A stretch of 64,000 bases of DNA from Amphibalanus amphitrite (lineage: Eukaryota > Arthropoda > Thecostraca > Balanomorpha > Balanidae). Made by a program: the position numbers and the translations under genes. Positions 13,334 to 62,837 of the stretch are shown one piece after another. The first letter of the stretch is position 1. The number at the start of each line of letters is the position of its first letter. Location: the NCBI RefSeq assembly GCF_019059575.1, contig NW_024882211.1, positions 248,001 to 312,000 of the forward strand. The letters are read 5' to 3'. The notes under the pieces are model-generated. The model saw only the letters and a program-made list of their open reading frames with translations, ran no database searches and was not told the origin of the DNA.

Positions 13334-14222
13334 CCCTCGCATGTGTGCGGCGTTTGCCAGCTTCTAATGTGTAGGGGGGGGGGGTCGGTTGGACCCCCCC
13401 TTGCCGTTTGGCCCCTGATCGAGCTAGAGCTTCGCGGAAAAAACGAGCGTGTTGCCCGTGACGAGAGAAAGCCGATGATACCCAATTTTAAGGTCCTAGG
13501 TCATTGGTTGACCTTCCAGGTCAGGTCAATGACCCAAAGTCGGGAAAATCGGGATCTGTTAGAAAGTCGTAAAGTGTGGCTGCTAGCTAAGGGGTTTTTC
13601 GGGGTCCTGATCACGAATATCGTGTTAGTTTTGATCACAGATGATGTCTTGAAGCATTTAGACCAGGTCGGGTCAGGTCAGGTCAGGTCAACCAGTAGGC
13701 GTCGTGACGGGTATTCGTAGTACGTGTCAACCGCCTCTGACAGCTTCGTAACATGTTACGAAGTCACCAAAACTACTTCGTAAATGTTCAAATGGTTGCT
13801 AAATTCGAATTCAGCTCCAAAAACTAGCCTAGAAACATGTAAAACTCGAAAAAGTGACCCGAGGTCACCCGAGGTCACCAAAGGTCAATGACCTGACCTG
13901 ACCTTCAGGTGACCTTGACACACACGGGAGTAACATCAAATCACATGTTTGAACGTTTGAAACCACGAAAAGCTTGCAAACACGCGGCTAGTGCGAGCCG
14001 ACATACGCGAAATCGCGATTCCGGCCAAACATGGTCTCGGAAAAAAGGTCACAGGTCAAAGGTCATTTGGGTCAGGGTCATGAAATTTTCAGGGTAGGTG
14101 TCAAATTGATCAATGCGAGGGTACTGAAAGTTTCGTCGCGATCGGCCGCTTTTTACGCGAGTTATTCGCGAAAAACCATGGGGGGGGTCCATCCGACCCC
14201 CCCCCCCCTACACATGCGAGGG
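13334..14222. mobile_element. piggyBac-like AGGTCA-rich element nested in MITE A
   Basis: Perfect 12-bp inverted ends CCCTCGCATGTG at 13334 and 14222, TTAA on both sides (13330-13333 and 14223-14226). The uninterrupted site is preserved in the second MITE copy at about 17908. CCC/GGG termini plus TTAA fit piggyBac-like MITEs. Beside each end is a G-run, short palindrome and C-run (13372-13397 and 14180-14209). The interior holds an array of AGGTCA half-sites (13668-13692 and 13850-13915). No transposase frame. Confidence 0.85.
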
Positions 14223-14652: not shown

Positions 14653-15167
14653 TGGTGGTGCGTCGGGCCGCGCGCTCTGACTTCGGCCAAGAAAAATGCG
14701 TCAGCTGATCATTGTCATTTCTGCCACTTTCATGTGGTGAGATGGGGTCATAACTTTAGAGACGGCTGTTTCATATCAATTATTTTACATAAAATAATAT
14801 TTCCAACCATAAATTAATGTTCGACAGCCAAATTAAAGAAACAATACCAATACAGGCTTACAGTTTAAATTCGACATTGTGTTGTCTACGATTAGACAGC
14901 TGATAACTCATTCCCGTACGTCGTAACTCTATAATGACCTTTGCTTATTGTCACATGTGCGCCGCATTCGTGATTGTTGCCGACGCCTGTTTGCAGGTCA
15001 GCCCACTACAGTTGTTATACATATCGAAAAACCGATAAACTTTTAGGCGAAAAAAGCACTATTTTAGGCCCATTTTTTATTTTTTGCGATATTAGGTAAA
15101 AACAGAAGCTTCTTATCCTAGGAAAAATAAAATGGGAAATCATTCAAAGGTGGCACACTACCTTTAA

Positions 15168-17805: not shown

Positions 17806-18874
17806 AGGTAGTGTGCCAGCTTTCCTGGACCGTATGGAGTTAATGGCCCAGATAAGGAGAACCGGATTTTTAGAACTTATCCATACCTTCAAAACTCATG
17901 GAAACGTCTTAAATTCTTCAAATTTTGAGTACCCCAGTGCGAAATTCGCCCCGACGGGTTGTCGGTCGTATCCCAACCACATTTCACACCACTATGAACA
18001 ATAAACGCACACACTGAAATCGCTATTACCGATATGCTCATCCAATCAAGTTTCGATAAACCCGTTCATCATCATCTCCTGCGGTTTCGAACACGCCTGT
18101 TAGGTGGTGCGGTAGACCGCGCCCAAAGCCAGGGCCCCGGTAACGTGAGGTAGCCGAGTCGGGGCAGCGTGCGCTGACCCAAGCCGGGGCCGCGCGTCCT
18201 CCCGGTGTCATGTGATAGCCCGGGGCTGCCCGCGGGGATGCGGTAGACCGCGCCCAAAGCTGCGGCCCCGGCTTGGGTCAGCGCACGCTGCCCCGACTCG
18301 GCTACCTCACGTTACCGGGGCCCTGGCTTTGGGCGCGGCTTCTGCTCATACTTTGTGGTGCGGTGGTGGTGCGTCGGGCCGCGCGCTCTGACTTCGGCCA
18401 AGAAAAATGCGTCAGCTGATCATTGTCATTTCTGGCACTTGCGTGTGGTGAAATGGGGTCATAACTTAAGAGACGGCTTTTTCATATCAATTATTTTACA
18501 CAAAATCATATTTCAAACCATAAATAATGTTCGACAGCCAAATAAAAGAAACAATACCAATACAGGCTTACAGTTTAAGGCTCGACATTGTGTTGTCTAC
18601 GATTAGACAGCTGATAACTCCTTCCCGTACGTCGTAACTCTATAATGACCTTTGCTTATTGTCACATGTGCGCCGCATTCGCGATTGTTGCCGACGCCTG
18701 TTTGCAGCTCAGCCCACTACAGTTGTTATACATATCGAAAAACCGATAAACTTTTAGGCGAAAAAGGCACTATTCCAGGCCCATTATTGATTTTTTGCGA
18801 TATTAGGTAAAAACAGAAGCTTCTTATCCTAGGAAAAATAAAATAGGAAATCTTTCAAAGGTGGCACACTACCT
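17806..18874. mobile_element. TTAA-flanked MITE family A, copy 2 (uninterrupted)
   Basis: Same inverted ends as copy 1 (AGGTAGTGTGCCA at 17806 and 18874) with TTAA at 17802-17805 and 18875-18878. It aligns along its length with copy 1 minus the 13334-14222 insertion and differs by a small insertion near 18336-18360. Non-coding. It lies just 5' of the fibulin-type exon, probably within the intron. Confidence 0.85.
18117..18338. repeat. 78-bp inverted repeat (hairpin) in MITE A copy 2
   Basis: Arms 18117-18194 and 18261-18338. Same hairpin as in copy 1; the position mismatched there (ACTGGGG versus ACCGGGG) is paired here. Confidence 0.88.
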
Positions 18875-26827: not shown

Positions 26828-27065
26828 CTAATGCGTTATCCATAAAATTACCCGTCTGAATAATCACTGCTAAGCCTATATGAATGGATAAGATAACACC
26901 TTTGTCATCTTTGGATTAATTTTAAAAATAATAGCATCGAATTTAACGTAATCGAAACATAGCTATAGCTTTTGTCATTGATGCGCAATGACATCTTTAC
27001 CGAGCACTCCAATTCACAAGCAAATACAAATACAAATATTAAATATTGGATGCTGAAGTTCTTAC

Positions 27066-27219
27066 CGTCTGATGGTGTCCACCGAGCAGTTGAGGTGGAG
27101 CTCCGCCTTGATCCGATTAGCTGTGATTATCGGCTGCCTCGTAACAAGCTCCAGAATCGCTTGTTCTTGAGCCTCATTCACAACACGAGGGTGACCTCCT
27201 CCATGCCGGTCGAGAAGGT
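27066..27219 (-). pseudogene. Tc1-like transposase helix-turn-helix exon fragment
   Basis: The minus strand encodes about 50 residues: RHGGGHPRVVNEAQEQAILELV, then TRQPIITANRIKAELHL and CSVDTIRR, the second helix-turn-helix of Tc1-like or pogo-like transposases. At the 3' side CATCAGACG is followed by GTAAG (27065-27061), a possible donor site. At its 5' side the frame is cut by the foldback element at 27221. I could not recognise a continuation beyond 36833. It may be an old Tc1-like element or an exon derived from one. Confidence 0.6.
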
Positions 27220-27344
27220 ATGTAACGGAAGTTGGCACAGATTCAGCACAGGTTCAGCACAGCACAGATTCGGTAGGGGGAAAAAAGGCCACGGTAGAGG
27301 GAAACCTTTATGACCCGTTTTCCCCTAGAAATGACGTCACAAGG

Positions 27345-30300
27345 AGGTAAAAATGGGTATCAATGGAAAGCTCTCGTTTACCCAGACACAGTCCTGCAGG
27401 AAAATTTCACTTTTTCCCCATAGGAAAGTTTTTACGGGAAAATCAAAATTTTGGGTCAATGGGGGGTCCCCCCCGATTTCGTTCAAAATCGGCACACAGG
27501 TGCCCCACTACCAGCCGAGAAACTTTCCCCAAAACGGTCCCCGTTGCATTGACGTTTAAGGCCCGTAAAGCCCCCTAGACTCGTAAAATATCCGTAAAAT
27601 CGCCTTTGTGCGGACAAAAAAGTGGTGCTATGGTAAAAATGGGTATCAATCGAAAGCTCTCGTTTACCCAGACACAGTCCTGGAGGAAAATTTCACTTTT
27701 TCCCCATAGGAAAGTTTTTACGGGAAAATCAAAATTTTGGGTCAATGGGGGGTCCCCCCCGATTTCGTTCAAAATCGGCACACAGGTGCCCCACTACCAG
27801 CCGAGAAACTTTCCCCAAAACGGTCCCCGTTGCACTGACGTTTAAGGCCCGTAAAGCCCCCTAGACTCGTAAAATATCCGTAAAATCGCCTTTGTACGGA
27901 CAAAAAAGTAGTGCTATGGTAAAAATGGGTATCACTCGAAAGCTCTCGTTTACCCAGACACAGTCCTGCAGGAAAATTTCACTTTTTCCCCATAGGAAAG
28001 TTTTTACGGGAAAATCAAAATTTTGGGTCAATGGGGGTCCCCCCGATTTCGTTCAAAATCGGCACACAGGTGCCCACCACCAGCCGAGAAACTTTCCCCA
28101 AAACGGTCCCCGTTGCATTGACGTTTAAGGCCCGTAAAGCCCCCTAGACTCGTAAAATATCCGTAAAATCGCCTTTGTACGGACAAAAAAGTAGTGCTAT
28201 GGTAAAAATGGGTATCACTCGAAAGCTCTCGTTTACCCAGACACAGTCCTGCAGGAAAATTTCACTTTTTCCCCATAGGAAAGTTTTTACGGGAAAATCA
28301 AAATTTTGGGTCAATGGGGGGTCCCCCCGATTTCGTTCAAAATCGGCACACAGGTGCCCACCACCAGCCGAGAAACTTTCCCCAAAACGGTCCCCGTTGC
28401 ATTGACGTTTAAGGCCCGTAAAGCCCCCTAGACTCGTAAAATATCCGTAAAATCGCCTTTGTACGGACAAAAAAGTGGTGCTATGGTAAAAATGGGTATC
28501 ACTCGAAAGCTCTGGTTTACCCAGACACAGTCCTGCAGGAAAATTTCACTTTTTCCCCATAGGAAAGTTTTTACGGGAAAATCAAAATTTTGGGTCAATG
28601 GGGGGTCCCCCCCGATTTCGTTCAAAATCGGCACACAGGTGCCCCACCACCAGCCGAGAAACTTTCCCCAAAACGGTCCCCGTTGCATTGACCTTTAAGG
28701 CCCGTAAAGCCCCCTAGACTCGTAAAATATCCGTAAAATCGCCTTTGTACGGACAAAAAAGTGGTGCTATGGTAAAAATGGGTATCAATCGAAAGCTCTC
28801 GTTTACCCAGACACAGTCCTGCAGGAAAATTTCACTTTTTCCCCATAGGAAAGTTTTTACGGGAAAATCAAAATTTTGGGTCAATGGGGGGTCCCCCCCG
28901 ATTTCGTTCAAAATCGGCACACAGGTGCCCCACTACCAGCCGAGAAACTTTCCCCAAAACGGTCCCCGTTGCATTGACGTTTAAGGCCCGTAAAGCCCCC
29001 TAGACTCGTAAAATATCCGTAAAATCGCCTTTGTACGGACAAAAAAGTGGTGCTATGGTAAAAATGGGTATCAATCGAAAGCTCTCGTTTACCCAGACAC
29101 AGTCCTGCAGGAAAATTTCACTTTTTTCCCATAGGAAAGTTTTTATGGGAAAATCAAAATTTTGGGTCAATGGGGGGTCCCCCCCGATTTCGTTCAAAAT
29201 CGGCACACAGGTGCCCCACCACCAGCCGAGAAACTTTCCCCAAAACGGTCCCCGTTGCATTGACGTTTAAGGCCCGTAAAGCCCCCTAGACTCGTAAAAT
29301 ATCCGTAAAATCGCCTTTGTACGGACAAAAAAGTGGTGCTATGGTAAAAATGGGTATCAATCGAAAGCTCTCGTTTACCCAGACACAGTCCTGCAGGAAA
29401 ATTTCACTTTTTCCCCATAGGAAAGTTTTTACGGGAAAATCAAAATTTTGGGTCAATGAGGGGTCCCCCCCGATTTCGTTCAAAATCGGCACACAGGTGC
29501 CCCACTACCAGCCGAGAAACTTTCCCCAAAACGGTCCCCGTTGCATTGACGTTTAAGGCCCGTAAAGCCCCCTAGACTCGTAAAATATCCGTAAAATCGC
29601 CTTTGTACGGACAAAAAAGTGGTGCTATGGTAAAAATGGGTATCAATCGAAAGCTCTCGTTTACCCAGACACAGTCCTGCAGGAAAATTTCACTTTTTCC
29701 CCATAGGAAAGTTTTTACGGGAAAATCAAACTTTTGGGTCAATGGGGGGTCCCCCCCGATTTCGTTCAAAATCGGCACACAGGTGCCCCACCACCAGCCG
29801 AGAAACTTTCCCCAAAACGGTCCCCGTTGCATTGACCTTTAAGGCCCGTAAAGCCCCCTAGACTCGTAAAATATCCGTAAAATCGCCTTTGTACGGACAA
29901 AAAAGTGGTGCTATGGTAAAAATGGGTATCAATCGAAAGCTCTCGTTTACCCAGACACAGTCCTGCAGGAAAATTTCACTTTTTCCCCATAGGAAAGTTT
30001 TTACGGGAAAATCAAAATTTTGGGTCAATGGGGGGTCCCCCCCGATTTCGTTTAAAATCGGCACACAGGTGCCCCACTACCAGCCGAGAAACTTTCCCCA
30101 AAACGGTCCCCGTTGCATTGACGTTTAAGGCCCGTAAAGCCCCCTAGACTCGTAAAATATCCGTAAAATCGCCTTTGTACGGACAAAAAAGTGGTGCTAT
30201 GGTAAAAATGGGTATCAATCGAAAGCTCTCGTTTACCCAGACACAGTCCTGCAGGAAAATTTCACTTTTTCCCCATAGGAAAGTTTTTACGGGAAAATCA

Positions 30301-31701
30301 AAATTTTGGGTCAATGGGGGGTCCCCCCCGATTTCGTTCAAAATCGGCACACAGGTGCCCCACCACCAGCCGAGAAACTTTCCCCAAAACGGTCCCCGTT
30401 GCATTGACGTTTAAGGCCCGTAAAGCCCCCTAGACTCGTAAAATATCCGTAAAATCGCCTTTGTACGGACAAAAAAGTGGTGCTATGGTAAAAATGGGTA
30501 TCAATCGAAAGCTCTCGTTTACCCAGACACAGTCCTGCAGGAAAATTTCACTTTTTCCCCATAGGAAAGTTTTTACGGGAAAATCAAAATTTTGGGTCAA
30601 TGAGGGGTCCCCCCCGATTTCGTTCAAAATCGGCACACAGGTGCCCCACTACCAGCCGAGAAACTTTCCCCAAAACGGTCCCCGTTGCATTGACGTTTAA
30701 GGCCCGTAAAGCCCCCTAGACTCGTAAAATATCCGTAAAATCGCCTTTGTACGGACAAAAAAGTGGTGCTATGGTAAAAATGGGTATCAATCGAAAGCTC
30801 TCGTTTACCCAGACACAGTCCTGCAGGAAAATTTCACTTTTTCCCCATAGGAAAGTTTTTACGGGAAAATCAAAATTTTGGGTCAATGGGGGGGTCCCCC
30901 CCGATTTCGTTCAAAATCGGCACACAGGTGCCCCACCACCAGCCGAGAAACTTTCCCCAAAACGGTCCCCGTTGCATTGACCTTTAAGGCCCGTAAAGCC
31001 CCCTAGACTCGTAAAATATCCGTAAAATCGCCTTTGTACGGACAAAAAAGTGGTGCTATGGTAAAAATGGGTATCAATCGAAAGCTCTCGTTTACCCAGA
31101 CACAGTCCTGCAGGAAAATTTCACTTTTTCCCCATAGGAAAGTTTTTACGGGAAAATCAAAATTTTGGGTCAATGGGGTTTTGGGTCAATGGGGGGTCCC
31201 CCCCCCCCGATTTCGTTTAAAATCGGCACACAGGTGCCCCACTACCAGCCGAGAAACTTTCCCCAAAACGGTCCCCGTTGCATTGACGTTTAAGGCCCGT
31301 AAAGCCCCCTAGACTCGTAAAATATCCGTAAAATCGCCTTTGTACGGACAAAAAAGTGGTGCTATGGTAAAAATGGGTATCAATCGAAAGCTCTCGTTTA
31401 CCCAGACACAGTCCTGCAGGAAAATTTCACATTTTCCCCATAGGAAAGTTTTTACGGGAAAATCAAAATTTTGGGTCAATGGGGGGTCCCCCCCCGATTT
31501 CGTTCAAAATCGGCACACAGGTGCCCCACTACCAGCCGAGAAAATTTCCCCAAAACGGTCCCCGTTGCATTGACGTTTAAGGCCCGTAAAGCCCCCTAGA
31601 CTCGTAAAATATCCGTAAAATCGCCTTTGTACGGACAAAAAAGTGGTGCTATGGTAAAAATGGGTATCAATCGAAAGCTCTCGTTTACCCAGACACAGTC
31701 C
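27345..31701 (+). repeat. ~286-bp satellite array, forward orientation (about 15 units)
   Basis: Unit period is 283-287 bp, with one 306-bp unit near 31180 due to a partial duplication of TTTTGGGTCAATGGGG. Landmarks in order: CCCGTAAAGCCCCCTAGACT, TACGGACAAAAAAGTGGTGC, CCCAGACACAGTCCTGCAGG, a GGGGGGTCCCCCC palindrome, GATTTCGTTCAAAATC, CACACAGGTGCCCCAC. Units differ by few substitutions. Short frames (77-92 codons) recur on both strands in each unit and are not genes. Confidence 0.95.
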
Positions 31702-31800
31702 GTCCGATTTTGAACGAAATCGGGGGGACCCCCCATTGACCCAAAATTTTGATTTTCCCGTAAAAGCTTTCCTATGGGGAAAAAGTGAAATTTTCCTGCA

Positions 31801-34800
31801 GGACTGTGTCTGGGTAAACGAGGGCTTTCGATTGATACCCATTTTTACCATAGCACCACTTTTTTTCCGTACAAAGGCGATTTTACGGATATTTTACGAG
31901 TCTAGGGGGCTTTACGGGCCTTAAACGTCAATGCAACGGGGACCGTTTTGGGGAAAGTTTCTCGGCTGGTGGTGGGGCACCTGTGTGCCAATTTTGAACG
32001 AAATCGGGGGGGACCCCCATTGACCCAAAATTTTGATTTTCCCGTAAAAACTTTGCTATGGGGAAAAAGTGAAATTTTCCTGCAGGACTGTGTCTGGGTA
32101 AACGAGAGCTTTCGAGTGATACCCATTTTTACCATAGCACCACTTTTTTGTCCGTACAAAGGCGATTTTACGGATATTTTACGAGTCTAGGGGGCTTTAC
32201 GGGCCTTAAACGTCAATGCAACGGGGACCGTTTTGGGGAAAGTTTCTCGGCTGGTGGTGGGGCACCTGTGTGCCGATTTTGAACGAAATCGGGGGGGACC
32301 CCCCATTGACCCAAAATTTTGATTTTCCCGTAAAAACTTTCCTATGGGGAAAAAGTGAAATTTTCCTGCAGGACTGTGTCTGGGTAAACGAGAGCTTTCG
32401 ATTGATACCCATTTTTACCATAGCACCACTTTTTTGTCCGTACAAAGGCGATTTTACGGATATTTTACGAGTCTAGGGGGCTTTACGGGCCTTAAACGTC
32501 AGTGCAACGGGGACCGTTTTGGGGAAAGTTTCTCGGCTGGTAGTGGGGCACCTGTGTGCCGATTTTGAACGAAATCGGGGGGGACCCCCCATTGACCCAA
32601 AATTTTGATTTTCCCGTAAAAACTTTCCTATGGGGAAAAAGTGAAATTTTCCTGCAGGACTGTGTCTGGGTAAACGAGAGCTTTCGATTGATACCCATTT
32701 TTACCATAGCACCACTTTTTTGTCCGTACAAAGGCGATTTTACGGATATTTTACGAGTCTAGGGGGCTTTACGGGCCTTAAACGTCAATGCAACGGGGAC
32801 CGTTTTGGGGAAAGTTTCTCGGCTGGTGGTGGGGCACCTGTGTGCCGATTTTGAACGAAATCGGGGGGGACCCCCCATTGACCCAAAATTTTGATTTTCC
32901 CGTAAAAACTTTCCTATGGGGAAAAAGTGAAATTTTCCTGCAGGACTGTGTCTGGGTAAACGAGAGCTTTCGAGTGATACCCATTTTTACCATAGCACCA
33001 CTTTTTTGTCCGTACAAAGGCGATTTTACGGATATTTTACGAGTCTAGGGGGCTTTACGGGCCTTAAACGTCAATGCAACGGGGACCGTTTTGGGGAAAG
33101 TTTCTCGGCTGGTAGTGGGGCACCTGTGTGCCGATTTTGAACGAAATCGGGGGGGACCCCCCATTGACCCAAAATTTTGATTTTCCCGTAAAAACTTTCC
33201 TATGGGGAAAAAGTGAAATTTTCCTGCAGGACTGTGTCTGGGTAAACGAGAGCTTTCGATTGATACCCATTTTTACCATAGCACCACTTTTTTGTCCGTA
33301 CAAAGGCGATTTTACGGATATTTTACGAGTCTAGGGGGCTTTACGGGCCTTAAACGTCAATGCAACGGGGACCGTTTTGGGGAAAGTTTCTCGGCTGGTG
33401 GTGGGGCACCTGTGTGCCGATTTTGAACGAAATCGGGGGGGACCCCCCATTGACCCAAAATTTTGATTTTCCCGTAAAAACTTTCCTATGGGGAAAAAGT
33501 GAAATTTTCCTGCAGGACTGTGTCTGGGTAAACGAGAGCTTTCGATTGATACCCATTTTTACCATAGCACCACTTTTTTGTCCGTACAAAGGCGATTTTA
33601 CGGATATTTTACGAGTCTAGGGGGCTTTACGGGCCTTAAAGGTCAATGCAACGGGACCGTTTTGGGGAAAGTTTCTCGGCTGGTGGTGGGGCACCTGTGT
33701 GCCGATTTTGAACGAAATCGGGGGGGACCCCCCATTGACCCAAAATTTTGATTTTCCCGTAAAAACCTTCCTATGGGGAAAAAGTGAAATTTTCCTGCAG
33801 GACTGTGTCTGGGTAAACGAGAGCTTTCGATTGATACCCATTTTTACCATAGCACCACTTTTTTGTCCGTACAAAGGCGATTTTACGGATATTTTACGAG
33901 TCTAGGGGGCTTTACGGGCCTTAAACGTCAGTGCAACGGGACCGTTTTGGGGAAAGTTTCTCGGCTGGTAGTGGGGCACCTGTGTGCCGATTTTGAACGA
34001 AATCGGGGGGGACCCCCCATTGACCCAAAATTTTGATTTTCCCGTAAAAACTTTCCTATGGGGAAAAAGTGAAATTTTCCTGCAGGACTGTGTCTGGGTA
34101 AACGAGAGCTTTCGATTGATACCCATTTTTACCATAGCACCACTTTTTTGTCCGTACAAAGGCGATTTTACGGATATTTTACGAGTCTAGGGGGCTTTAC
34201 GGGCCTTAAACGTCAATGCAACGGGGACCGTTTTGGGGAAAGTTTCTCGGCTGGTAGTGGGGCACCTGTGTGCCGATTTTGAACGAAATCGGGGGGGACC
34301 CCCCATTGACCCAAAATTTTGATTTTCCCGTAAAAACTTTCCTATGGGGAAAAAGTGAAATTTTCCTGCAGGACTGTGTCTGGGTAAACGAGAGCTTTCG
34401 ATTGATACCCATTTTTACCATAGCACCACTTTTTTGTCCGTACAAAGGCGATTTTACGGATATTTTACGAGTCTAGGGGGCTTTACGGGCCTTAAACGTC
34501 AATGCAACGGGGACCGTTTTGGGGAAAGTTTCTCGGCTGGTGGTGGGGCACCTGTGTGCCGATTTTGAACGAAATCGGGGGGACCCCCCATTGACCCAAA
34601 ATTTTGATTTTCCCGTAAAAACTTTCCTATGGGAAAAAAGTGAAATTTTCCTGCAGGACTGTGTCTGGGTAAACGAGAGCTTTCGATTGATACCCATTTT
34701 TAACATAGCACCACTTTTTTGTCCGTACAAAGGCGATTTTACGGATATTTTACGAGTCTAGGGGGCTTTACGGGCCTTAAACGTCAATGCAACGGGGACC

Positions 34801-36700
34801 GTTTTGGGGAAATTTTCTCGGCTGGTAGTGGGGCACCTGTGTGCCGATTTTGAACGAAATCGGGGGGACCCCCCATTGACCCAAAATTTTGATTTTCCCG
34901 TAAAAGCTTTCCTATGGGGAAAAAGTGAAATTTTCCTGCAGGACTGTGTCTGGGTAAACGAGAGCTTTCGATTGATACCCATTTTTACCATAGCACCACT
35001 TTTTTGTCCGTACAAAGGCGATTTTACGGATATTTTACGAGTCTAGGGGGCTTTACGGGCCTTAAACGTCAATGCAACGGGGACCGTTTTGGGGAAAGTT
35101 TCTCGGCTGGTAGTGGGGCACCTGTGTGCCGATTTTAAACGAAATCGGGGGGGACCCCCCATTGACCCAAAATTTTGATTTTCCCGTAAAAACTTTCCTA
35201 TGGGGAAAAAGTGAAATTTTCCTGCAGGACTGTGTCTGGGTAAACGAGAGCTTTCGATTGATACCCATTTTTACCATAGCACCACTTTTTTGTCCGTACA
35301 AAGGCGATTTTACGGATATTTTACGAGTCTAGGGGGCTTTACGGGCCTTAAACGTCAATGCAACGGGGACCGTTTTGGGGAATTTTTCTCGGCTGGTAGT
35401 GGGGCACCTGTGTGCCGATTTTGAACGAAATCGGGGGGGGGACCCCCCATTGACCCAAAATTTTGATTTTCCCGTAAAAACTTTCCTATGGGGAAAAAGT
35501 GAAATTTTCCTGCAGGACTGTGTCTGGGTAAACGAGAGCTTTCGATTGATACCCATTTTTACCATAGCACCACTTTTTTGTCCGTACAAAGGCGATTTTA
35601 CGGATATTTTACGAGTCTAGGGGGCTTTACGGGCCTTAAAGGTCAATGCAACGGGGACCGTTTTGGGGAAAGTTTCTCGGCTGGTGGTGGGGCACCTGTG
35701 TGCCGATTTTGAACGAAATCGGGGGGGACCCCTCATTGACCCAAAATTTTGATTTTCCCGTAAAAACTTTCCTATGGGGAAAAAGTGAAATTTTCCTGCA
35801 GGACTGTGTCTGGGTAAACGAGAGCTTTCGAGTGATACCCATTTTTACCATAGCACCACTTTTTTGTCCGTACAAAGGCGATTTTACGGATATTTTACGA
35901 GTCTAGGGGGCTTTACGGGCCTTAAACGTCAATGCAACGGGGACCGTTTTGGGGAAAGTTTCTCGGCTGGTGGTGGGGCACCTGTGTGCCGATTTTGAAC
36001 GAAATCGGGGGGGACCCCCCATTGACCCAAAATTTTGATTTTCCCGTAAAAACTTTCCTATGGGGAAAAAGTGAAATTTTCCTGCAGGACTGTGTCTGGG
36101 TAAACGAGAGCTTTCGAGTGATACCCATTTTTACCATAGCACCACTTTTTTGTCCGTACAAAGGCGATTTTACGGATATTTTACGAGTCTAGGGGGCTTT
36201 ACGGGCCTTAAACGTCAGTGCAACGGGACCGTTTTGGGGAAAGTTTCTCGGCTGGTAGTGGGGCACCTGTGTGCCGATTTTGAACGAAATCGGGGGGGAC
36301 CCCCCATTGACCCAAAATTTTGATTTTCCCGTAAAAACTTTCCTATGGGGAAAAATTGAAATTTTCCTGCAGGACTGTGTCTGGGTAAACGAGAGCTTTC
36401 GATTGATACCCATTTTTACCATAGCACCACTTTTTTGTCCGTACAAAGGCGATTTTACGGATATTTTACGAGTCTAGGGGGCTTTACGGGCCTTAAACGT
36501 CAATGCAACGGGGACCGTTTTGGGGAAAGTTTCTCGGCTGGTAGTGGGGCACCTGTGTGCCGATTTTGAACGAAATCGGGGGGGACCCCCCATTGACCCA
36601 AAATTTTGATTTTCCCGTAAAAACTTTCCTATGGGGAAAAAGTGAAATTTTCCTGCAGGACTGTGTCTGGGTAAACGAGAGCTTTCCATTGATACCCATT
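31801..36700 (-). repeat. ~286-bp satellite array, reverse orientation (about 17 units)
   Basis: Same unit as the left array, read on the minus strand, with 284-288-bp spacing. The first unit after the switch carries changes (a missing base in the TTTTTTTCCG word near 31867, GAGGGCTTTCG for GAGAGCTTTCG). The last unit runs into the unique terminal sequence exactly as its mirror does on the left. Confidence 0.95.
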
Positions 36701-36833
36701 TTTACCTCCTTGTGACGTCATTTCTAGGGGAAAACGGGTCATAAAGGTTTCCCTCTACCGTGGCCTTTTTTCCCCCTACCGAATCTGAGCTGTGCTGAAC
36801 CTGTGCTGAATCTGTGCCAACTTCCGTTACATA

Positions 36834-38080
36834 GAAAAAGAAATCACGCCTAGGTAAAGGCAGGTAAAAGCTTAATAAAATATTATCTAAAATAACTCTT
36901 AGATGTATTTCTGGATTTTCGGCAAGTCCAATTACATAATATAAAACTGGCGCTTTATGTTCTAACTGGTGTGTGAGTGACCGCTAACAGAAAATGCTGA
37001 TCAACGGAGCCAATGGCATTAGATTATAAGTGAGCATGAACCTTACTTACGGTTAATTCACATGATGGTGAAAACCCTGAACACGTAATTCACATGATGG
37101 TGAAAACCCTGAACACAATATTTCTTACGCGAGCTGTTGACTTTACTAATAAAATGACGTCTTTTTCTGAAAATGTTAAAATTTGATACTTAATATTTGT
37201 TTGAGAACAAGCTTTTAACTGTATAACATTATCATTTATAAATTATAATTTCTATGGCTATTTATATTGAAACAAAACAATTTTTTGCCACTTCTTTGCT
37301 ATTGACGTCACTAAAGACTCAATTAAAATTTTTGATTGAAAGAGGCAATTGTGGCTCGCACGTCCTTGGGGGTTTGATCGAAGATCATTATTTGGAAAAA
37401 TTAAAATAGATGAATGTTTTTTCTTTCTTTGATGCTCACTAGTGTTTTGATGCCTTGCATATCAAATTAGTTTGAGACTTGTTCAGAAGGCTGCTTCAAG
37501 CCTGGCATATCACACCCCAGAAAATATGCAAGGTAAGGAAGAAGCAAGAGTTTTGACTAGACAATCACTGTTTGACAGTACATCAACTTCAGTTTCATTT
37601 TCCATACCTAACATTGATAATGAAAAGCATCAGGGTCTGTTGTTCTGTCCCACAACCATGCTTCAGGATTTGGCATTAGATGTCTATACTGCTAGTGCTT
37701 CTATTCTGGTTCGTTGTTTATGTTTTCTGCTGATGTAGGCACCTACCTACCTACCTACCCATCTTTCTCAACAACTTGCAAGGGCTTGTGTAGGCATGCG
37801 TTGCGCATCAGGCTTCAGGCCTTCGGCCTAAAGCCAGATACACAACCACTTAACCTATGATGCTTCATGAGCTTGAGAATCTATAGCCCATTGCAATGTG
37901 CTTTTGGCTATATGTTTCAACTAAAAACAACTTATTATATACTATTTGGTTGCATTTCATTGAAAGTATCCACGGCCGGCTGATGGCTGGCTGCCCACAG
38001 TTTGCCACGGCTGTGGGCGGCTGTGGCTGTGGAGCCACGGCTGCGGGGCGGCTAGGCTGTGGAAAATTGCAGCCGTGCAG
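36834..38080. other. No gene recognised; short duplication and simple repeats
   Basis: AT-rich. A ~33-bp direct tandem duplication (AATTCACATGATGGTGAAAA followed by CCCTGAACAC) lies at 37051-37114. (CTAC)n is at 37741-37758. 37975-38065 is built from GGCTGTGG/CCACGGC words. The longest frame (37472-37738) shows no known domain. Confidence 0.45.
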
Positions 38081-39631: not shown

Positions 39632-40744
39632 CAGTGACGCAGCCAGGATTTCATTTCGGGGGGGGGGGGTCATCACCTCCAAAGCGGGCCCCTAGTGTGC
39701 GGGCCCCCCACCCATTTTTCAGAATTTCTCCATATTTCATACACATTCTGCTGAGCGGGCCCCCTTTACCTGCACGATAACCCTGAGCGAGTTTGAATCA
39801 GAACATTTGGATAGAACAATAGCTCGGTAAACCCGGTGTTCAATTTTTACGCAAAATGACCACGACAGAAATATGTCACTATGATGTAAGAATTCGTATC
39901 TTTCGAGGCCGAAATGTGCCCCTTCCACAATATGCATAGCATATATGCAATCGGAACTGTTGCCTGCTTCTGTCGGACAATTAACTAGTCCCATGTGCCT
40001 GTTCTAAGTCATCTTATATTGGCTGCTTTAGTAGATTGTGCCTTTATTCTTCTTCATTACGTGAATTCGCTCACAAGAAGTTTTAACCCTCGCGGCACAG
40101 GGGGAAGGGGCAACCCTCCTAGTTTTTTTTTCGCGAATAACTTGCGTAAAAAGCGGCTGATCGCGACGTAACTTTCAGTACCCTCGCGTTGATCAATTTT
40201 ACACTTTTACACCTACCCTAGAAATTTTATGACCCTGACCCAAATGACCTAAAGGTCAATTCAAGGTCAAATTCCGACCTTAAGGTCGGAAAGTAGGCCA
40301 AAGTTGGCCTACTTTCCGAGACCATGTTTGGCCAGAATCGCGGTTCGGCGCATGCCGGCTCGCATTAGCGGCGCGTTTGCGTCCTTTCGTGGTTTCAAGC
40401 GTTCAAACATGTGATTTGATGTTGCTCCCATGCATAAGGGTGGATGTCAATGTCACCTGAAGGTCAGGTCAGTTCATTGACCTATGAGGACCTCAGTACA
40501 CTTTTTCAAGCTATATGCATGTTTCTAAGCTAGTTTTTGTTTAGCTGAATTCGAATTTAGCAACCATTTGAACATTTAAGTAGTTTTGGTGCCTTCGTAG
40601 CATGTTACGAAGCTGTCAGAGGCGGTTGATACGTATGTACTACGAATACCCGTCACGATCCATACTGGTTGACCTGACCTGACCTGACCTGACCCGACCT
40701 GGCCTAAATGCATAAAGACATCATCTGTGATCAAAACTAACATA

Positions 40745-42029
40745 CAGGGTGTTGCAGGTAAATTGGAAATTTTCAGACCTAATTTCAACATGCTATTAAT
40801 ACGGTGAATAAAAACACAGAAAGTTGAAACTTCGCACGTGTATTGTGTCATGTACGCACAGCCTTGTCACTCGATGTGACCGCCGTCGGCGTCCCGCACC
40901 CTCTCGAGACGGCGCCGGAAAGCGGAGCACGCGCGCCGGGCCTCGTCCTGGTCAATGGTGCTGACTGCCTTCCTGATGGCCTTCTTCAGGTCAGAAACGT
41001 TGGCAGGAGTGGTCGAGTTGGACTTTTGTTCTACCACGCCCCACATCCAAAAGTCGCATGGATTCAAGTCAGGCGAGTTGGAGGGCCATATGTCCTTGGG
41101 TACATATAGGGGGATCCTCTGGCTCAGGAAATCTTGCACCCTCTGGGAAGCATGTGCTGGGGCGGAGTCTTGCACCAGCATGACATTGCTCAAGTCATAG
41201 TATTTTATCATCCAGGGGATGAGAGACTCCTTCAGGATGGTCAAATACGCGTCAGTGTCGATCATCACACCAGCAGGTATGAAATGGGGCGGCATTATGC
41301 GGCCATCACTTGCGACGGCCCCGAACACCATTACCTACTGATGCCGGATTTTTGCCTTTCATCACGGGAGCCACTTCATCAGGGCTGTAGGCGATAGCCC
41401 GCGAGTTCCTGCGGTTGGCGACCTCTTCTACGATGAACTTTTTCTCATCGACAAATACTCTGACGTCACTCCCGAGGTGCTTGAGGAGATTGAGGACCTT
41501 CGGTGCCCTTCCCTTCGTATCGCTCTTGCTGGTTCGGTCAGGAGGCTTCGTCGTTTTCTGGTAAACGACTTCATCCCGAGGTCCTCTCTCACGGCTCTGC
41601 TGATGGTGCTCTTGCTCACGTGACGGGCACGCGCAAGCTTGTTCATCGAGGTCCTCGTTTTTGCCTGTATCGAGCGTTTTAAGCCGCTCAGGAATGTTGG
41701 TGTCCGTTTTCGGTCACTGCGAGGTGTGTGAGAACGTCGAGCGACATCCCCTCCAGCTCCTACAGTCGCGATAGTTCGGTACACGGTAGACTTTGGGTAC
41801 CCAGTTAAACTTATTATGTCCTTCGCGCTCTGTCCGGCGCGAACTAACTCACCAATCGTTTCCCTCCGACACTGCTCCATGATTGCGCGATATGTTAGGA
41901 TTAAAATTTCAATATCAAATGAAAAACAATTGTTGAAATTATATTGTGTCAAATTTCCATGATGTTCCTCCGCATAGCAAATTTTTTGTAAGGCCATGAA
42001 CTTAGTCCCAATTTATCTGCAACACCCTG
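40745..42029 (-). mobile_element. Tc1/mariner transposon, complete but decayed
   Basis: Inverted ends CAGGGTGTTGCAG(G/A)TAAAT at 40745 and 42029 with TA on both sides (40743-40744 and 42030-42031). Length about 1.28 kb is normal for mariner. The un-inserted site is visible in the related element at about 13608-13640. The single transposase gene runs on the minus strand. Confidence 0.9.
40867..41880 (-). pseudogene. Mariner-type transposase with two frameshifts
   Basis: Begins at an ATG at 41880 (MEQCRRETIGELVRAG). Domains in order: two N-terminal helix-turn-helix segments (SAKDIISLTGYPKSTVYRTI; SMNKLARARHVSKSTISRAV), then a DDD catalytic core: VFVDEKKF (about 41450), VQDSAPAHAS (about 41170), SPDLNPCDFWMW (about 41050). 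By count the last two acidic residues are 37 residues apart, so DD37D spacing rather than the classic DD34D. Frameshifts lie near 41530 and near 41340; the core between them is in another phase. It ends with a stop at 40867-40869. Inactive. Confidence 0.88.
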
Positions 42030-56041: not shown

Positions 56042-59000
56042 TCATAGTCCCGCCTGGAACCTTTCAGGTGGTCGCGACACTCGGCCTGATCTGGTCACGT
56101 ATGACATTGGCGGCAACATTCCCCTCTGAGCGACGCCCACATCACCAGGTGGGCCAGCTCTCCCGAGTAAGTGCATTAGCGGCACCTCGAGCAGAACGCC
56201 ATGCTCGTTACCACAGTCGCTCACGGGATCCACCCCCACGGCCTCACCACGTCCATTTGGACCACTCGGATCCTGAACTGGCCGCAAGTCGGTCCGACGA
56301 GGGATGAACTCCTTGAGGTCGTTGTGGTGCACGACGCGTGTCTTGCCGCGGACGTCCTGTATCCGGTAGGTAACTTCCTCCCCCGGTGTGCCTCTTCTCT
56401 CGACGATGGTCACCGGTCCTTTAAACGGCAGACCCAGCTTCGGTTTTCCTCCCACAGCGGCAGTGTGGTCTCGTACCCACACCTTCAAGCCCGTTGGGTA
56501 CGCGGTAAAATTGAGTTTGCTGTCATGGCGAACCGCCATTCGAGCAGCTGATTGGGAGGAGGCTCTCCTCACCTGTGCGAAGACCCGCTTCATGTTCTTC
56601 AGCCGTTTGTTCAGGAAGGTTTCAGCTGGTATTGCGACTTCATCGGTTCCGTACATTACATCCAAAGGCAACCGAGGCTCAAAGCCATGGATCATGTAGA
56701 AAGGTGTGTGACCGGTGGTTTCGTGGAGGGAAGAATTGTAGGCCATGGCGTATGATCTGGTACTTTCGTCCCAGTCAAGGCCCTGGCTGTCGATGTATTT
56801 CGACACCATGTCTTTCAGGGTCCTCATGAAGCGCTCCACCATCCCGTCGCTCTCAGGATGATAAGGCGTTGTTCTAGTCTTGTGGATGCCGAGCCTCTGA
56901 TACAGCTCACGCATCATCAGAGATTCGAATTGAGCGCCCTGATCTGTGTGAAGCCTCTCGGGAACACCAAGCTCCTGAACCCAGTGAAGGAGTGCCTCCA
57001 TCACCGTTTCTGTCTTCTGATTCGGCATCGGGAAGATTCGTACGAACTTTGAGAAGTAATCCATGATCACGAGCACATATCGGTTGCCTCTTCTCGACAC
57101 AGGCATCTCCGTGATGTCCATGGCTATTCTCTGGAAGGGTCGTGAGGTAACCTCGGTAACCATCGGTGCTCGTCTTTTGGGTGCCGGTCTGTACCGCCGC
57201 TGACACGGCGTGCACGAGGCACAGAAGCTCCGGATGTCCTCATTCATCCCCGGCCAGACGAATCGAGCCTTCACCCGGGCGATGGTCCGTCTGCGACCCA
57301 TGTGCCCGCTCGATGGATCATCATGCGCCAGTCGGATGATCTCGGCCCGTTCAGTTTGAGGCACCGCCGCCTGGAACTGTCGACCCGAGGCAATGCCGAT
57401 TACTCCATTCATGACGCGCACCTTGCTCCAGTGTTTTCGCAGCACTCCCCACCCAGCGAACGCTGCAGGCCTTGGCTTCTCCTTCCTCTCGTGTGCTCTT
57501 CGGAGAGCCGACAGCGTCGCGTCACTGGCTTGCGCCTGGGCGATTGGAGGGAGGGTCCGTTCTTGGACTGATTGTGACACAGCGACTGATACAGCAGCCG
57601 GTTCCTGCGTAAGCCTTGAGAATACAGCAGTTGGAGCTACAAGAGTCACAACCGACTCAGGCGAACCGCCTTCCGTCGGCGCGGGCGAGCCGCCCGCTAC
57701 TGACCCCACCGTCTCCGTTCTATCTCCTCTCTCTGAGACAGAGCGACCGGGACACCACCCCTGGCCTTGGGCTTGACCAGATCGGACCGCAGACGCCATA
57801 TCTGGTGGTCTGCGAGACAGCGCATCAGCGTTCCCGTGGGCCAGACCGCTGCGGATCCGAACATTGAAGTCGAAAGAACTCAGCTCGATCGCCCATCGAC
57901 CACGACGTCCTGTGCCGTCTCGCTCTGCTGCGATCGATGTCGGTATGTTTGCCAGCGGCTTGTGGTCGGTCACCACTTCAAATCTGGCACCAACAGTGTA
58001 CTGACGGAAATGTCTGATGCCATGAACGATCGCCCAGAGTTCCTTATCGTAAGTCGGCCATCTCGTCTGCTGCTTTGTGAGTGCCTTACTCTCATAGGCG
58101 ATCACCTTTTCCTCATCTCCAATGCGTTCAGCCAGCACCACACCCACAGCAGAGTTGCATGCGTCTGTATACAGGACGAACGTCCCTTCACCTGTTGGCA
58201 AAGCCAGTACGGGAGGCGAGGACAGAGTGGACTTCAACAGCTCGAATGCAATGCGCATCGGTTCGGACCACCTGATTCGTCCCTCCTCTACTGCGGCGTC
58301 CCTAAGTGGCTTTGTAATCGCGGCATACCCCTGAATAAACCGCGCGTAGTACCCGCACAGGCCTAAGAAGCTTTTCATCTCCTCCTCAGATGACGGCTGC
58401 GGCCAGGCCAGGACCTTGTCCACGTTATGCGGATCTGGACGTATCCCTTCCTCGGAGACGAGATGTCCAAGGAAAGTCACCTCCTTGCGTGCGAATCGAC
58501 ATTTCTGTGCCTTTAGCTTCAGCCCGGCTTGCTGAATCCTCAGGAGTACCTCCTGCAGGGTAGCCAGATGTTCTTCCTCGGTCCTGTTGAACAAGATGAC
58601 GTCATCCAAGTACACCAAACAGCTTTTGGTGTCAAGGCCTGCGAGAATCAGTTCCATCATCTTCTGGAAAGTGCCGCTGGCGTTCTTGAGACCCATTGCC
58701 ATGACTCTGAACTGATGGAGGCCTTTTCCAGTCGAAAATGCCGTCTTCTCTCGATCTTCAGCCGCCAGTTCAACCTGCCAATACCCTGTGGCCATGTCCA
58801 GCGTGGTAAACCACCTCGCCCTTGACAGGGTATCGAGCGAGTCGTCGATTCGTGGGAGCGGCATGGCGAAGCCCTTCGTCACTGCGTTCACAGCCCTCAG
58901 GTCGACGCAGAAGCGGAAGGATCCATCTTTCTTGCGCACCAACACGACCGGCGAACACCACGGACTTTCGCTTTCCTCAATGACACCATCCTGTAACATC

Positions 59001-60097
59001 TTTTCTTTTTGTTTCTCTACCTGGTCTCGGACTTTCATGGGTATCCGTCGTGGACGTTGTTTGACTGGGACTGCATCCCCCGTGTCAATCCTGTGTTTTG
59101 TCACACCTGTACGACCAATGTCTCCCGGTCTTTTACTGAAGACGTCACTGTAGGTCTCAAATAAACCCCGTAGTTTGTTACGACCTCTCTCACTCAAGTC
59201 TGTCAGTTCTGGTGACAGGGCTTGCTGCACCTCCGGTTCCACCTCTCCAGGATCATGAGATGGATTACCTCCATCTCCACAGCTCGCCACATTGCAATCG
59301 GCACAGTCTGCCCCGGGACACAAAACACACAGGGCGTCTTCACCGCCCCCAAACGCAAGGAACGTCCCGACATCAGAGCCCTTCAAGAGACGGACGCCCT
59401 CCGCTCCGACATTCGTCAACCGGATAGGTATGGTGCCATTGGAGGCGATCACCACCACAGCCCGTGGAATCAATAGATCCTCACGCTCCGCCGTGCGGCT
59501 TGGCTCCATCATCCCACTTACCGAGCCTGCTGACGTCACAAAAGGTCCCTGGCCATCAAGTCGCTGCACCACTGCTGCTACCGTTGTTACCGAACGACCT
59601 GGTAGTGTTACTGCATCGCCAAGAATGACTCTAGCCCGCGGGGGACGGATCTCAGGGTATGTTGGAAGTGGAATCGTCATCCCTTTCATACGGATCACCC
59701 CCTTCTCATCGTCAATGATAGTTCTGTTTTGGCAACAGAAGTCACGTCCAAGGATCACGTCATAGACCAGCCCCGACACCACAGCCAGTCGTGGACACAC
59801 AATCGACTCCTCCTCCACCTGGATAGGGACATCACGGAGCACCTCAACGATGTTCAGGGGGCTACCACCAGCTCCCTTCGCGGACCGCGTCGGGGTGGTG
59901 GCCTGACAAGCCAGTTCCGTTTTCAACCGCTGCTGGAGCCCATCCCTGACCATGGAAAAGTCGGCACCCGAATCGACCAGCGCCCATACTTCGAGGCTGC
60001 CCAAGTGGACTCGAATGGCTGTTGCAGTTAATCGGGACTGGATACACGCAGCCGGCTCTTGTCCCACAGGGCCAGCTGCCCCTAGTTTTCCGCCGGC
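56042..60097 (-). CDS. pol: Gypsy pol polyprotein (protease, RT, RNase H, integrase)
   Basis: Open from just after a TAA at 60100-60098 to a stop at 56042. There is no early ATG (the first is some 38 residues after a GTG at 60067), so it is probably made as a fusion with gag. Numbering from 60067: retropepsin-like protease with VDSGA (31-35) and ILGRDF (105-110); reverse transcriptase with TLDMATGYWQ (422-431) and YLDD (486-489); RNase H with TDACNSA (634-640), YDKELWAI (673-680) and TDHKPL (700-705); integrase with an HHCC zinc site (H915, H922, C949, C952) and catalytic D984, D1042 and E1078 (D,D-35-E). A GPF-like segment (LPFKGPVTIV) and a tail ending in TRSGRVSRPPERFQ follow, as in many Gypsy elements. 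Length of about 1,340 residues is normal. No stop or frameshift interrupts it. Confidence 0.95.
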   Translation of the reverse strand, partial: AGGKLGAAGPVGQEPAACIQSRLTATAIRVHLGSLEVWALVDSGADFSMVRDGLQQRLKTELACQATTPTRSAKGAGGSPLNIVEVLRDVPIQVEEESIVCPRLAVVSGLVYDVILGRDFCCQNRTIIDDEKGVIRMKGMTIPLPTYPEIRPPRARVILGDAVTLPGRSVTTVAAVVQRLDGQGPFVTSAGSVSGMMEPSRTAEREDLLIPRAVVVIASNGTIPIRLTNVGAEGVRLLKGSDVGTFLAFGGGEDALCVLCPGADCADCNVASCGDGGNPSHDPGEVEPEVQQALSPELTDLSERGRNKLRGLFETYSDVFSKRPGDIGRTGVTKHRIDTGDAVPVKQRPRRIPMKVRDQVEKQKEKMLQDGVIEESESPWCSPVVLVRKKDGSFRFCVDLRAVNAVTKGFAMPLPRIDDSLDTLSRARWFTTLDMATGYWQVELAAEDREKTAFSTGKGLHQFRVMAMGLKNASGTFQKMMELILAGLDTKSCLVYLDDVILFNRTEEEHLATLQEVLLRIQQAGLKLKAQKCRFARKEVTFLGHLVSEEGIRPDPHNVDKVLAWPQPSSEEEMKSFLGLCGYYARFIQGYAAITKPLRDAAVEEGRIRWSEPMRIAFELLKSTLSSPPVLALPTGEGTFVLYTDACNSAVGVVLAERIGDEEKVIAYESKALTKQQTRWPTYDKELWAIVHGIRHFRQYTVGARFEVVTDHKPLANIPTSIAAERDGTGRRGRWAIELSSFDFNVRIRSGLAHGNADALSRRPPDMASAVRSGQAQGQGWCPGRSVSERGDRTETVGSVAGGSPAPTEGGSPESVVTLVAPTAVFSRLTQEPAAVSVAVSQSVQERTLPPIAQAQASDATLSALRRAHERKEKPRPAAFAGWGVLRKHWSKVRVMNGVIGIASGRQFQAAVPQTERAEIIRLAHDDPSSGHMGRRRTIARVKARFVWPGMNEDIRSFCASCTPCQRRYRPAPKRRAPMVTEVTSRPFQRIAMDITEMPVSRRGNRYVLVIMDYFSKFVRIFPMPNQKTETVMEALLHWVQELGVPERLHTDQGAQFESLMMRELYQRLGIHKTRTTPYHPESDGMVERFMRTLKDMVSKYIDSQGLDWDESTRSYAMAYNSSLHETTGHTPFYMIHGFEPRLPLDVMYGTDEVAIPAETFLNKRLKNMKRVFAQVRRASSQSAARMAVRHDSKLNFTAYPTGLKVWVRDHTAAVGGKPKLGLPFKGPVTIVERRGTPGEEVTYRIQDVRGKTRVVHHNDLKEFIPRRTDLRPVQDPSGPNGRGEAVGVDPVSDCGNEHGVLLEVPLMHLLGRAGPPGDVGVAQRGMLPPMSYVTRSGRVSRPPERFQAGL

Positions 60098-61167
60098 TTA
60101 TCAGATGGAAGGGCTTCCCTCGACATCAGCCCCCGACGTCCACCCATTGCTGGAGGCCCCTGCTGCAGGCGAGAATGGCATGCCGCCATCCAGTGCCCAG
60201 CCTCGCCACAGAATAAACAAAACGGTTGGAGCGGGGTGGCAGCTTGTACAGCCGACTGACAGTTACTCCGAATGTGACCCTCCTGCCCGCACGAAAAACA
60301 TTTCACCCTGGTGGCTCTCGGTCCAGTTCTCGGCTGACCACGGCGTACCACCGGGCAGTCACGCCGAAAATGGCCGGGGGCACCACACCCGTAACATTTG
60401 ACAGCCTCAGGCAGGTGGTCCGTCTTGGCAACGGCGAACGCCTCCAACGAAGACCGCAGCTGGCCGATCTCCTGCTGCAGCTGAGCTATCCTTGCATCCT
60501 GCTGCGACCCACCTCCTACCTCTGCATGAACAGCTGACGCTACAGCACCCAGGGGAAGGGGCCCAGTACCTGTATGCGTCGATGGGTTAGCAGCGCGTAC
60601 CGCCTGGACGACCTCCTGGCGTTTATGCAGCTCTCGGATCACCGCTACAGCCGCAGACAGTGACTCAGGATTACGGTGGCACAGTTTCGTCTGGAGCCAC
60701 TCATCCCGAAGTCCACATATGAACCGACTCGTCAGGGTTTTCATCACGAACGCCCTCTCTGCATACGTTTCCTCAGGACCTTTTCCCTCCCCTGACGGAC
60801 CGGTAGAATGAGGGAACGCAGCCCGCCCCAGTCTCTTAATACGGTCAGCGAAGCTCTCAGCTGATTCCCCCGGCGACTGGGAGGCGCGCCCCAGCTCGGC
60901 CTGCGCCTGTAAGGGCTCGATTAACCGACCAAACCGGACCCCAAGTCCTGACTTTATCTCAGAGTACGAACTGTCACCCTGATACAGCGAATGCGCATAA
61001 TCGAGTGCGACGCCATCCAGCAGAGGCAACAGCCGCTTAACTCGCTCAACGTCTCCGAGTCCCACCGTTAACGACTCGAAACGAGATATCCACCGCTCCC
61101 AATCATCTGTCTCTATACCCGCAAAACGAGGGGTTCGCGATACCAAAATAGTGTCGTTGAAATCCAT
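60082..61167 (-). CDS. gag: Gypsy gag protein with three zinc knuckles
   Basis: Starts at the ATG at 61167-61165 (MDFNDTILV); an upstream TTG extension is not needed. 361 residues to TAG at 60084-60082. The N-terminal part resembles the retrotransposon gag capsid domain (WERWISRFESL, then LPLLDGVALDYAHSL). A Gln-rich helix at about 225-245 may be coiled coil. Three CCHC knuckles follow: CYGCGAPGHFRRDC (258-271), CFSCGQEGHIRSNC (290-303) and CLFCGEAGHWMAAC (317-330), which bind the element RNA in virus-like particles. The end overlaps the pol frame by 16 nt. Confidence 0.93.
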   Translation of the reverse strand: MDFNDTILVSRTPRFAGIETDDWERWISRFESLTVGLGDVERVKRLLPLLDGVALDYAHSLYQGDSSYSEIKSGLGVRFGRLIEPLQAQAELGRASQSPGESAESFADRIKRLGRAAFPHSTGPSGEGKGPEETYAERAFVMKTLTSRFICGLRDEWLQTKLCHRNPESLSAAVAVIRELHKRQEVVQAVRAANPSTHTGTGPLPLGAVASAVHAEVGGGSQQDARIAQLQQEIGQLRSSLEAFAVAKTDHLPEAVKCYGCGAPGHFRRDCPVVRRGQPRTGPRATRVKCFSCGQEGHIRSNCQSAVQAATPLQPFCLFCGEAGHWMAACHSRLQQGPPAMGGRRGLMSREALPSDKPAEN

Positions 61168-61391
61168 GGCCAGCGGAAACAATTCACCAAATTATTCAAA
61201 ACTGCACCCAGGCGGACCGCCTTATTCCTAACGTTCCCCTCAGAACAGAAAATATCGGCGTTCTATTTTCGAGCAAACCGCCCGCTTTTTGTCGAGCACA
61301 GACTAGTTACGACAATCAACATTCATGAACTAAATTTCAATAAATATCATCAAATGAAATTAATGAACTCACCCTTTGTCGTCTTCTGCTG

Positions 61392-62601: not shown

Positions 62602-62837
62602 CTCTCGCCCGTATTGGTGTTTTCCAGCCGCAAACGTATAAGGGGGGGGGGGGGGTCCGTTGGACCCCCCTTGCCGTTTCGCCCCTGATTGAGCTAGAGC
62701 TTCGCGGAAAAAAGCGAGCGTGTTGGCCGTGACGAGAGGAAGTCGATGATACCCAATTTTAAGGTCCTAGGTCATCGGTTGACTTTCCAGGTCAGGTCAA
62801 TGACCCAAAAGTCGGGAAAATCGGGACCTGTTAGAAA
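62602..62837. mobile_element. piggyBac-like element, left end only, cut by a LINE
   Basis: TTAA (62598-62601) followed by CTCTCGCCCGTATTGG, then a G-run/TCCGTTGGA/C-run motif (62641-62669) and sequence matching 13398-13560 of the element at 13334. It stops at the LINE tail at 62838. An additional TTAA lies at 62590. Confidence 0.7.

Follow-up and report, generated by a model that had tools for sequence, protein, structure and literature searches.

The element in the window

The window, a stretch of 64,000 nucleotides of Amphibalanus amphitrite DNA on contig C714, contains an element (27220-36832) in which 126-bp ends enclose two arrays of a 286-bp unit, set head to head (Table 1). The original prediction described two opposed 286-bp arrays meeting head to head between near-identical unique termini of about 130 bp. 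Both features are confirmed: TRF recovers the two arrays, and the left and right termini align over 126 bp with a single mismatch. With 0.00 matches to 20 bp of the terminus expected in shuffled windows, chance is excluded. The outer boundaries, earlier placed at 27223 and 36831, are corrected to the A of ATGTAACGG on the left and to position 36832 on the right. Elsewhere in the window, mariner-like transposase reading frames (40867-42012) and long LTR-retroelement-like frames (56042-61191) lie on the minus strand, both classified by eye.

Table 1. Positions in the window of the element, its immediate flanks and two empty sites.
Feature	Positions	Strand	Details
Second empty copy of the dispersed repeat hosting the L018 element	14781..14905	-	single TTGGTATTG
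Empty site, copy of the dispersed repeat hosting the C970 element (L018)	18492..18616	-	single TTGGTATTG
Remnant reading frame of a Tc1-like transposase, left flank (locus Z)	27065..27217	-	minus-strand translation LLDRHGGGHPRVVNEAQEQ...; class by eye
CGAGAAGGT, 9 bp adjoining the left end	27211..27219	+	second copy absent at the right end
Left unique terminus (TIR), 126 bp	27220..27345	+	starts ATGTAACGG
Left arm, 286-bp unit x 15.2	27346..31701	+	TRF
Switch point, filler GT (2 nt)	31702..31703		unit phases 49/147; same junction in L009 and L019
Right arm, inverted, 286-bp unit x 17.5	31704..36706	-	TRF
Right unique terminus (TIR), 126 bp	36707..36832	-	ends CCGTTACAT
AGAAAAAGA, complement of TCTTTTTCT	36833..36841	+	one half of a 9-bp duplication that C1136 retains in full

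Ends, target duplication and empty sites

Twenty stretches around the best matches to the terminus were examined together with the window. Since these loci were picked as best matches, young copies are over-represented among them. All 35 ends recovered, the window's two included, carry ATGTAACGG or its complement, and the base just outside TGTAACGG is always A (or the complement T); the base beyond this terminal A or T varies. Because the A or T is shared by every end, the TA originally read as a target duplication joins one base of the element to one base of the flank. In the window, the terminal A and T belong to the element, while the T before and the A after it are flank bases.

Among the 14 cases with both ends, the target duplication matches at 9/9 positions in ten, at 8/9 in one (L023) and at 10/10 in another (L011). 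No duplication flanks the window copy or the second of the L017 elements. The element on C970 (L018), with which L020 shares its flanks, probably as one insertion on two contigs, is inserted in a dispersed repeat, and two uninterrupted copies of this repeat lie within the window itself. The empty site that had been sought is thus at hand: each copy holds a single TTGGTATTG, which fixes both borders of the element as well as its 9-bp duplication. On insertion, 9 bp of target are duplicated, not TA, and the family's outer borders do behave like transposon ends, as first proposed from the window, given the conserved ends, the duplications and the empty site. The duplication length is that of the Mutator superfamily or MULEs (8-11, mostly 9 bp), and the TA duplication of Tc1/mariner elements is absent. 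A P-superfamily element of the Galileo type does not fit the duplication length; that superfamily duplicates 7-8 bp. The TA-targeting palindromic element of Tc1/mariner type that was initially envisaged, on the strength of a TA flanking TGTAACGG...CCGTTACA at either end in the window, can hardly be upheld against a terminal A and T that lie inside the element, 9-bp duplications, and an empty site with a single 9-bp copy.

The window copy has its left end at one locus and its right end at another. Its counterpart is L009. A copy on C1136, in the opposite orientation, is 99.9% identical to it over 9.6 kb; of the C1136 flanks, one equals the window's right flank (225/225) and the other is unlike the window's left flank, and the C1136 copy retains an intact duplication, TCTTTTTCT. 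The left flank, in turn, has uninterrupted counterparts on C88 (96%) and C221 (94%), in which CGAGAAGGT is followed directly by TCCCATC where the window has the element. The C1136 match and these continuous copies place the left end at one site and the right end at another, and the target previously rebuilt as GGTAGAAAA was wrong. A genome search for the partner end of the left site gave one match, with 3 mismatches and no terminus. This chimera could have arisen by recombination between two copies or by an assembly misjoin.

Distribution of the family

The terminus and the 286-bp unit recur outside the window, as predicted. In the species' own assembly (807.6 Mb), the first 21 bp of the terminus are found at 308 sites (148 + 160), the junction of terminus and unit at 243, and a 30-base piece of the unit at 3,909, each with at most 2 mismatches and with 0 matches to the control (reversed, in the case of the terminus). 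When a pair is defined as a plus-strand terminus followed by a minus-strand one no more than 40 kb away, 88 of the 100 terminus sites listed of the 308 form 44 inward-facing pairs and 12 are single. The listed pairs span 3.4-25.9 kb (median 7.6 kb), so that the anticipated smaller copies with the same ends do exist. Some contigs are probably alternative haplotypes, and the 308 sites therefore overestimate the number of insertions. There are about 150 end pairs in the assembly, some of them probably two haplotypes of one insertion, and the element is present in over a hundred copies.

At every terminus in the 20 stretches the satellite array adjoins directly, and arrays reach 34 units. A further 20 terminus ends have no such junction among the matches listed; 17 of them are followed inward by a unit or a portion of one, and three are not. 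Of the 3,909 unit sites, 100 were listed, and none of these is free satellite: compared by eye, all lie inward of a terminus or junction. The suggestion that such elements seed free satellite is unsupported by this sample. Long elements on C13, C22, C51, C25, C124 and C148 contain satellite at the sampled points (1-3 each), and the long element on C21 has other, repeat-like sequence at three of four points. Family elements also occur end to end, a few bp to 500 bp apart, at L017:4978-4985 (C1253), C125:421504-421690, C5:2606068-2606503 and C13:1823682-1824182.

Long inverted arms of tandem repeats with variable length, as found here, define the foldback class. The apparent satellite block is a mobile element, and the mobile foldback element foreseen from the window is borne out by its ends, its 9-bp duplication, the empty site and its copy number.

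Switch points

Eighteen switches between the arms were mapped, one in the window and 17 in 16 of the stretches, and they fall into 13 types according to the unit phases that meet. Twelve contain 1-24 nt of filler and six an overlap; one more switch, outside this set, was seen in C39. Several junctions recur. For instance, 49/147 is found in the window, L009 and L019, 118/76 in L015 and, mirrored, in L017, and 118/107 in L018 and L020, probably a single insertion. L021 (C1399) and L022 (C1199) share junction 44/34, mirrored in the latter, together with the 9-mer GAAAAATTG beside the end, and their outer flanks differ. Since one junction is shared by separate sites (the window and L019 in one case, L015 and L017 in another), the palindrome moves as a unit. 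Recognisable middle sequence is retained at none of the 18 junctions, which argues against simple internal deletion, since that would sometimes leave such traces.

The recurrent junctions also bear on whether an ordinary satellite block was turned into a palindrome by the assembly. The window copy does carry the flanks of two loci, and such arrays are prone to misjoins. However, the same plan recurs at many sites with their own duplications and lengths, and identical switch junctions stand at different sites, which makes an artefact very improbable.

A gene-bearing copy

The original prediction proposed a search for an autonomous relative with the same termini and a transposase. The 25.9-kb pair at C105:775220-801085 answers to the first part, having family ends, satellite arms and an 8/9 duplication. 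Its arms, of about 15 and 13 units, form their own subtype, with unit differences of 0.37% in the left arm, 2.18% in the right and 1.50% across. Between them lies a middle of about 17.4 kb of other sequence, nested repeats included, with an open frame of 1882 codons from stop to stop. Pro/Ala-rich minisatellite makes up long stretches of this frame, and there two opposite frames, of 818 and 778 codons, are likewise open, so the length of the frame proves little.

The second part, the transposase, is answered less firmly. Residues 825-1420 are transposase-like, with the motifs IDATGS, VVSDLSW and CVESWF and catalytic residues assigned by eye; their match to the Pfam MULE domain (PF10551) is weak, with an E-value of 0.038 and 14.9 bits, below the cut-off of 27.6 bits. 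Residues 1715-1882 match the Ulp1 protease domain (PF02902) at E 9.4e-9. MULE-Ulp1 combinations occur in plants (Kaonashi). A comparison of the transposase region with solved structures gave no useful match (one hit, E 0.55). Among 8,000 scored candidates in a protein database, one distant relative (24%) possesses both IDATGS and D.SWALLH, and a second protein search requiring both motifs gave no further relatives.

In the genome, the transposase region has at least 70 matches (73 of 98 candidates scored): C105 itself, one broken copy at 58%, one at 48%, 15 long open frames at 33-39%, and fragments. At least 111 matches to the MULE domain were also seen (150 of 204 candidates scored), for example on C569, C49 and C1813, several of them in open frames of at least 440 codons. 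C105 is likely an autonomous member that moves the other copies in trans. As only one copy among the candidates scored is 100% identical and the next are a broken 58% and a 48% match, the mobiliser may be another copy.

Alternatively, the C105 frame could belong to an unrelated nested transposon, with the real transposase of the family encoded elsewhere. The frame is a single copy, the middle does hold nested repeats, and the 33-58% paralogues lie at none of the terminus sites among the matches listed (of 308). Nevertheless, the frame is enclosed by the family's arms and ends and by the 8/9 duplication. BLAST also finds no other inverted repeat around the frame within the 17-kb middle (E up to 1, low-complexity filter on), though short or absent ends of its own would be compatible with this result. 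An unrelated passenger is thus unlikely, and C105 is still read here as the probable autonomous member.

Evolution of the arms

Units of 275-300 bp were compared across 16 elements (328 units). On average, units differ by 1.29% within an arm, by 1.70% across the two arms of an element and by 2.20% from one element to another, and the nearest neighbour of a unit is in the same element in 54.0% of cases versus 7.2% by chance. Of the 14 elements represented by both arms, 12 show a cross-arm difference below that between elements; in the exceptions, L021 and L017b, units of opposite arms differ more than units of different elements. The outer parts of the arms are likewise more alike within an element. 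Over the outer 700 bp (10 elements), mates differ at 8.5 positions versus 15.3 for arms of different elements, and the same holds over 600 bp (10 elements) and 412 bp (12 elements), with 0/20,000 permutations as extreme in each test; L016 and L018 were left out at 600 and 700 bp. For the 126-bp terminus alone, the likeness within elements was reached in 51 of 8,614 permutations.

A tree of the outer 412 bp, from which L009 and L020 were dropped as duplicates and in which L016 was unscored, joins mates only partly. Of 11 elements, 5 have at least one arm whose closest sequence is its mate; in 3, the mate ranks 13th or beyond whichever arm is taken. This partial joining fits exchange between elements. 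The inner unit order of left and right arms is not mirrored, and arm lengths differ widely among elements. Nested in the satellite arms are repeat-like inserts, about 0.9 kb long and ending in CCC...GGG, several of them GACC-rich (L013:4437-5326, L018:6148-7094, L020:3208-4149 and L019:1955-2869), and relatives of the L013 insert are present in the window at 13374-14222, 40127-40743 and 62604-62850.

The likeness of outer arms within an element might suggest that junction diversity stems from repeated formation of new palindromes, one arm being a mirror-image copy of its partner, and not from deletion or repair of the centre. Against this stand the widely varying arm lengths and the unmirrored inner unit order, and conversion between arms would explain the likeness equally well. 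New palindrome formation is rather unlikely.

Relation to known foldback elements

Long inverted foldback-like arms are also characteristic of FB/NOF and Galileo in Drosophila, and both share these arms with the present family. FB differs in its short tandem units. Galileo differs in its membership of the P superfamily (PMC4079207, PMC3169594). A foldback with inverted termini built of tandem repeats is a known plan, represented in the available descriptions by Tetris, Tm1 and Rehavkus-1_TC. The statement that no family of such structure had been described therefore fails for the general plan. In the openly licensed literature, as represented by titles and opening abstracts, no satellite-armed foldback was found whose arms meet directly without a middle.

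By description, the nearest system is Rehavkus-1_TC of Tribolium, a 9.5-kb DNA transposon with a 164-bp satellite unit in its inverted termini (PMC10218199). The Rehavkus group is summarised as MULE-related, with a 9-bp duplication and a PHD finger (PMC6446971). Satellite in inverted termini and a 9-bp duplication are both found here. In contrast to the arrays of up to 34 units in A. amphitrite, the termini of Rehavkus-1_TC are described as having mostly five and eight units (PMC10218199). Most copies here are gene-less, and the C105 frame contains an Ulp1 domain, both of which depart from Rehavkus as described. The two C105 regions scanned (residues 825-1420 and 1715-1882), which cover part of the frame, have no PHD match, and the family is not assigned to Rehavkus.

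Tetris of Drosophila virilis is reported as a foldback with tandem units of about 220 bp in its termini, an 8-10 bp duplication and a link to satellite DNA, and is thus similar in plan and duplication length; it has a middle domain, no autonomous copy was found, and kb-size satellite arrays occur outside the element (PMC4079207). Unlike this account of Tetris, the arms here meet directly, a gene-bearing copy is present, and no free array was found in the sample (100 of 3,909). Tm1 of Meloidogyne has composite termini with a variable number of tandem units and an 8-10 bp, mostly 9-bp, duplication, and comprises one transposase-bearing type (Phantom/Mutator) and non-autonomous types (PMC3169594). 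Variable tandem-unit termini, the 9-bp duplication and the coexistence of gene-bearing and non-autonomous copies are shared with the present family; the 13-15 bp unit, asymmetric terminal motifs and FLYWCH finger given in the same account are not (PMC3169594).

Proposed history and significance

Most probably, the window element belongs to a Mutator-type family of foldback DNA transposons, as a non-autonomous copy that is moved in trans. In this proposal, the 126-bp ends would be recognised and moved by the transposase of a full-length copy such as C105:775220-801085, each insertion producing the 9-bp duplication. Each end would be followed by a tandem array of the 286-bp unit, and satellite-only copies would descend from gene-bearing ones by loss of the middle. 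Internal deletion would have joined the arms directly, each lineage at its own point in the satellite, the probable occasion being gap repair that followed excision, or repair of the unstable centre of the palindrome. Later, the arrays of one element would lengthen, shorten and homogenise, mostly within that element and across both arms.

More tentatively, and with the balance leaning slightly against it, the satellite may exist only as transposon arms. Each insertion would then evolve in concert as an almost closed unit, its arrays growing, shrinking and homogenising across the palindrome, and palindromes made of satellite alone would have replaced the form with a gene as the successful mobile unit, perhaps because many copies of the unit make it easier for the transposase to locate the ends or bind them. 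In this family, a satellite array is packed in a mobile unit for which ends, target duplication, empty sites and a probable mobiliser are in hand. The origin of satellites from transposons, and the survival and change of long palindromes, thereby become testable copy by copy.
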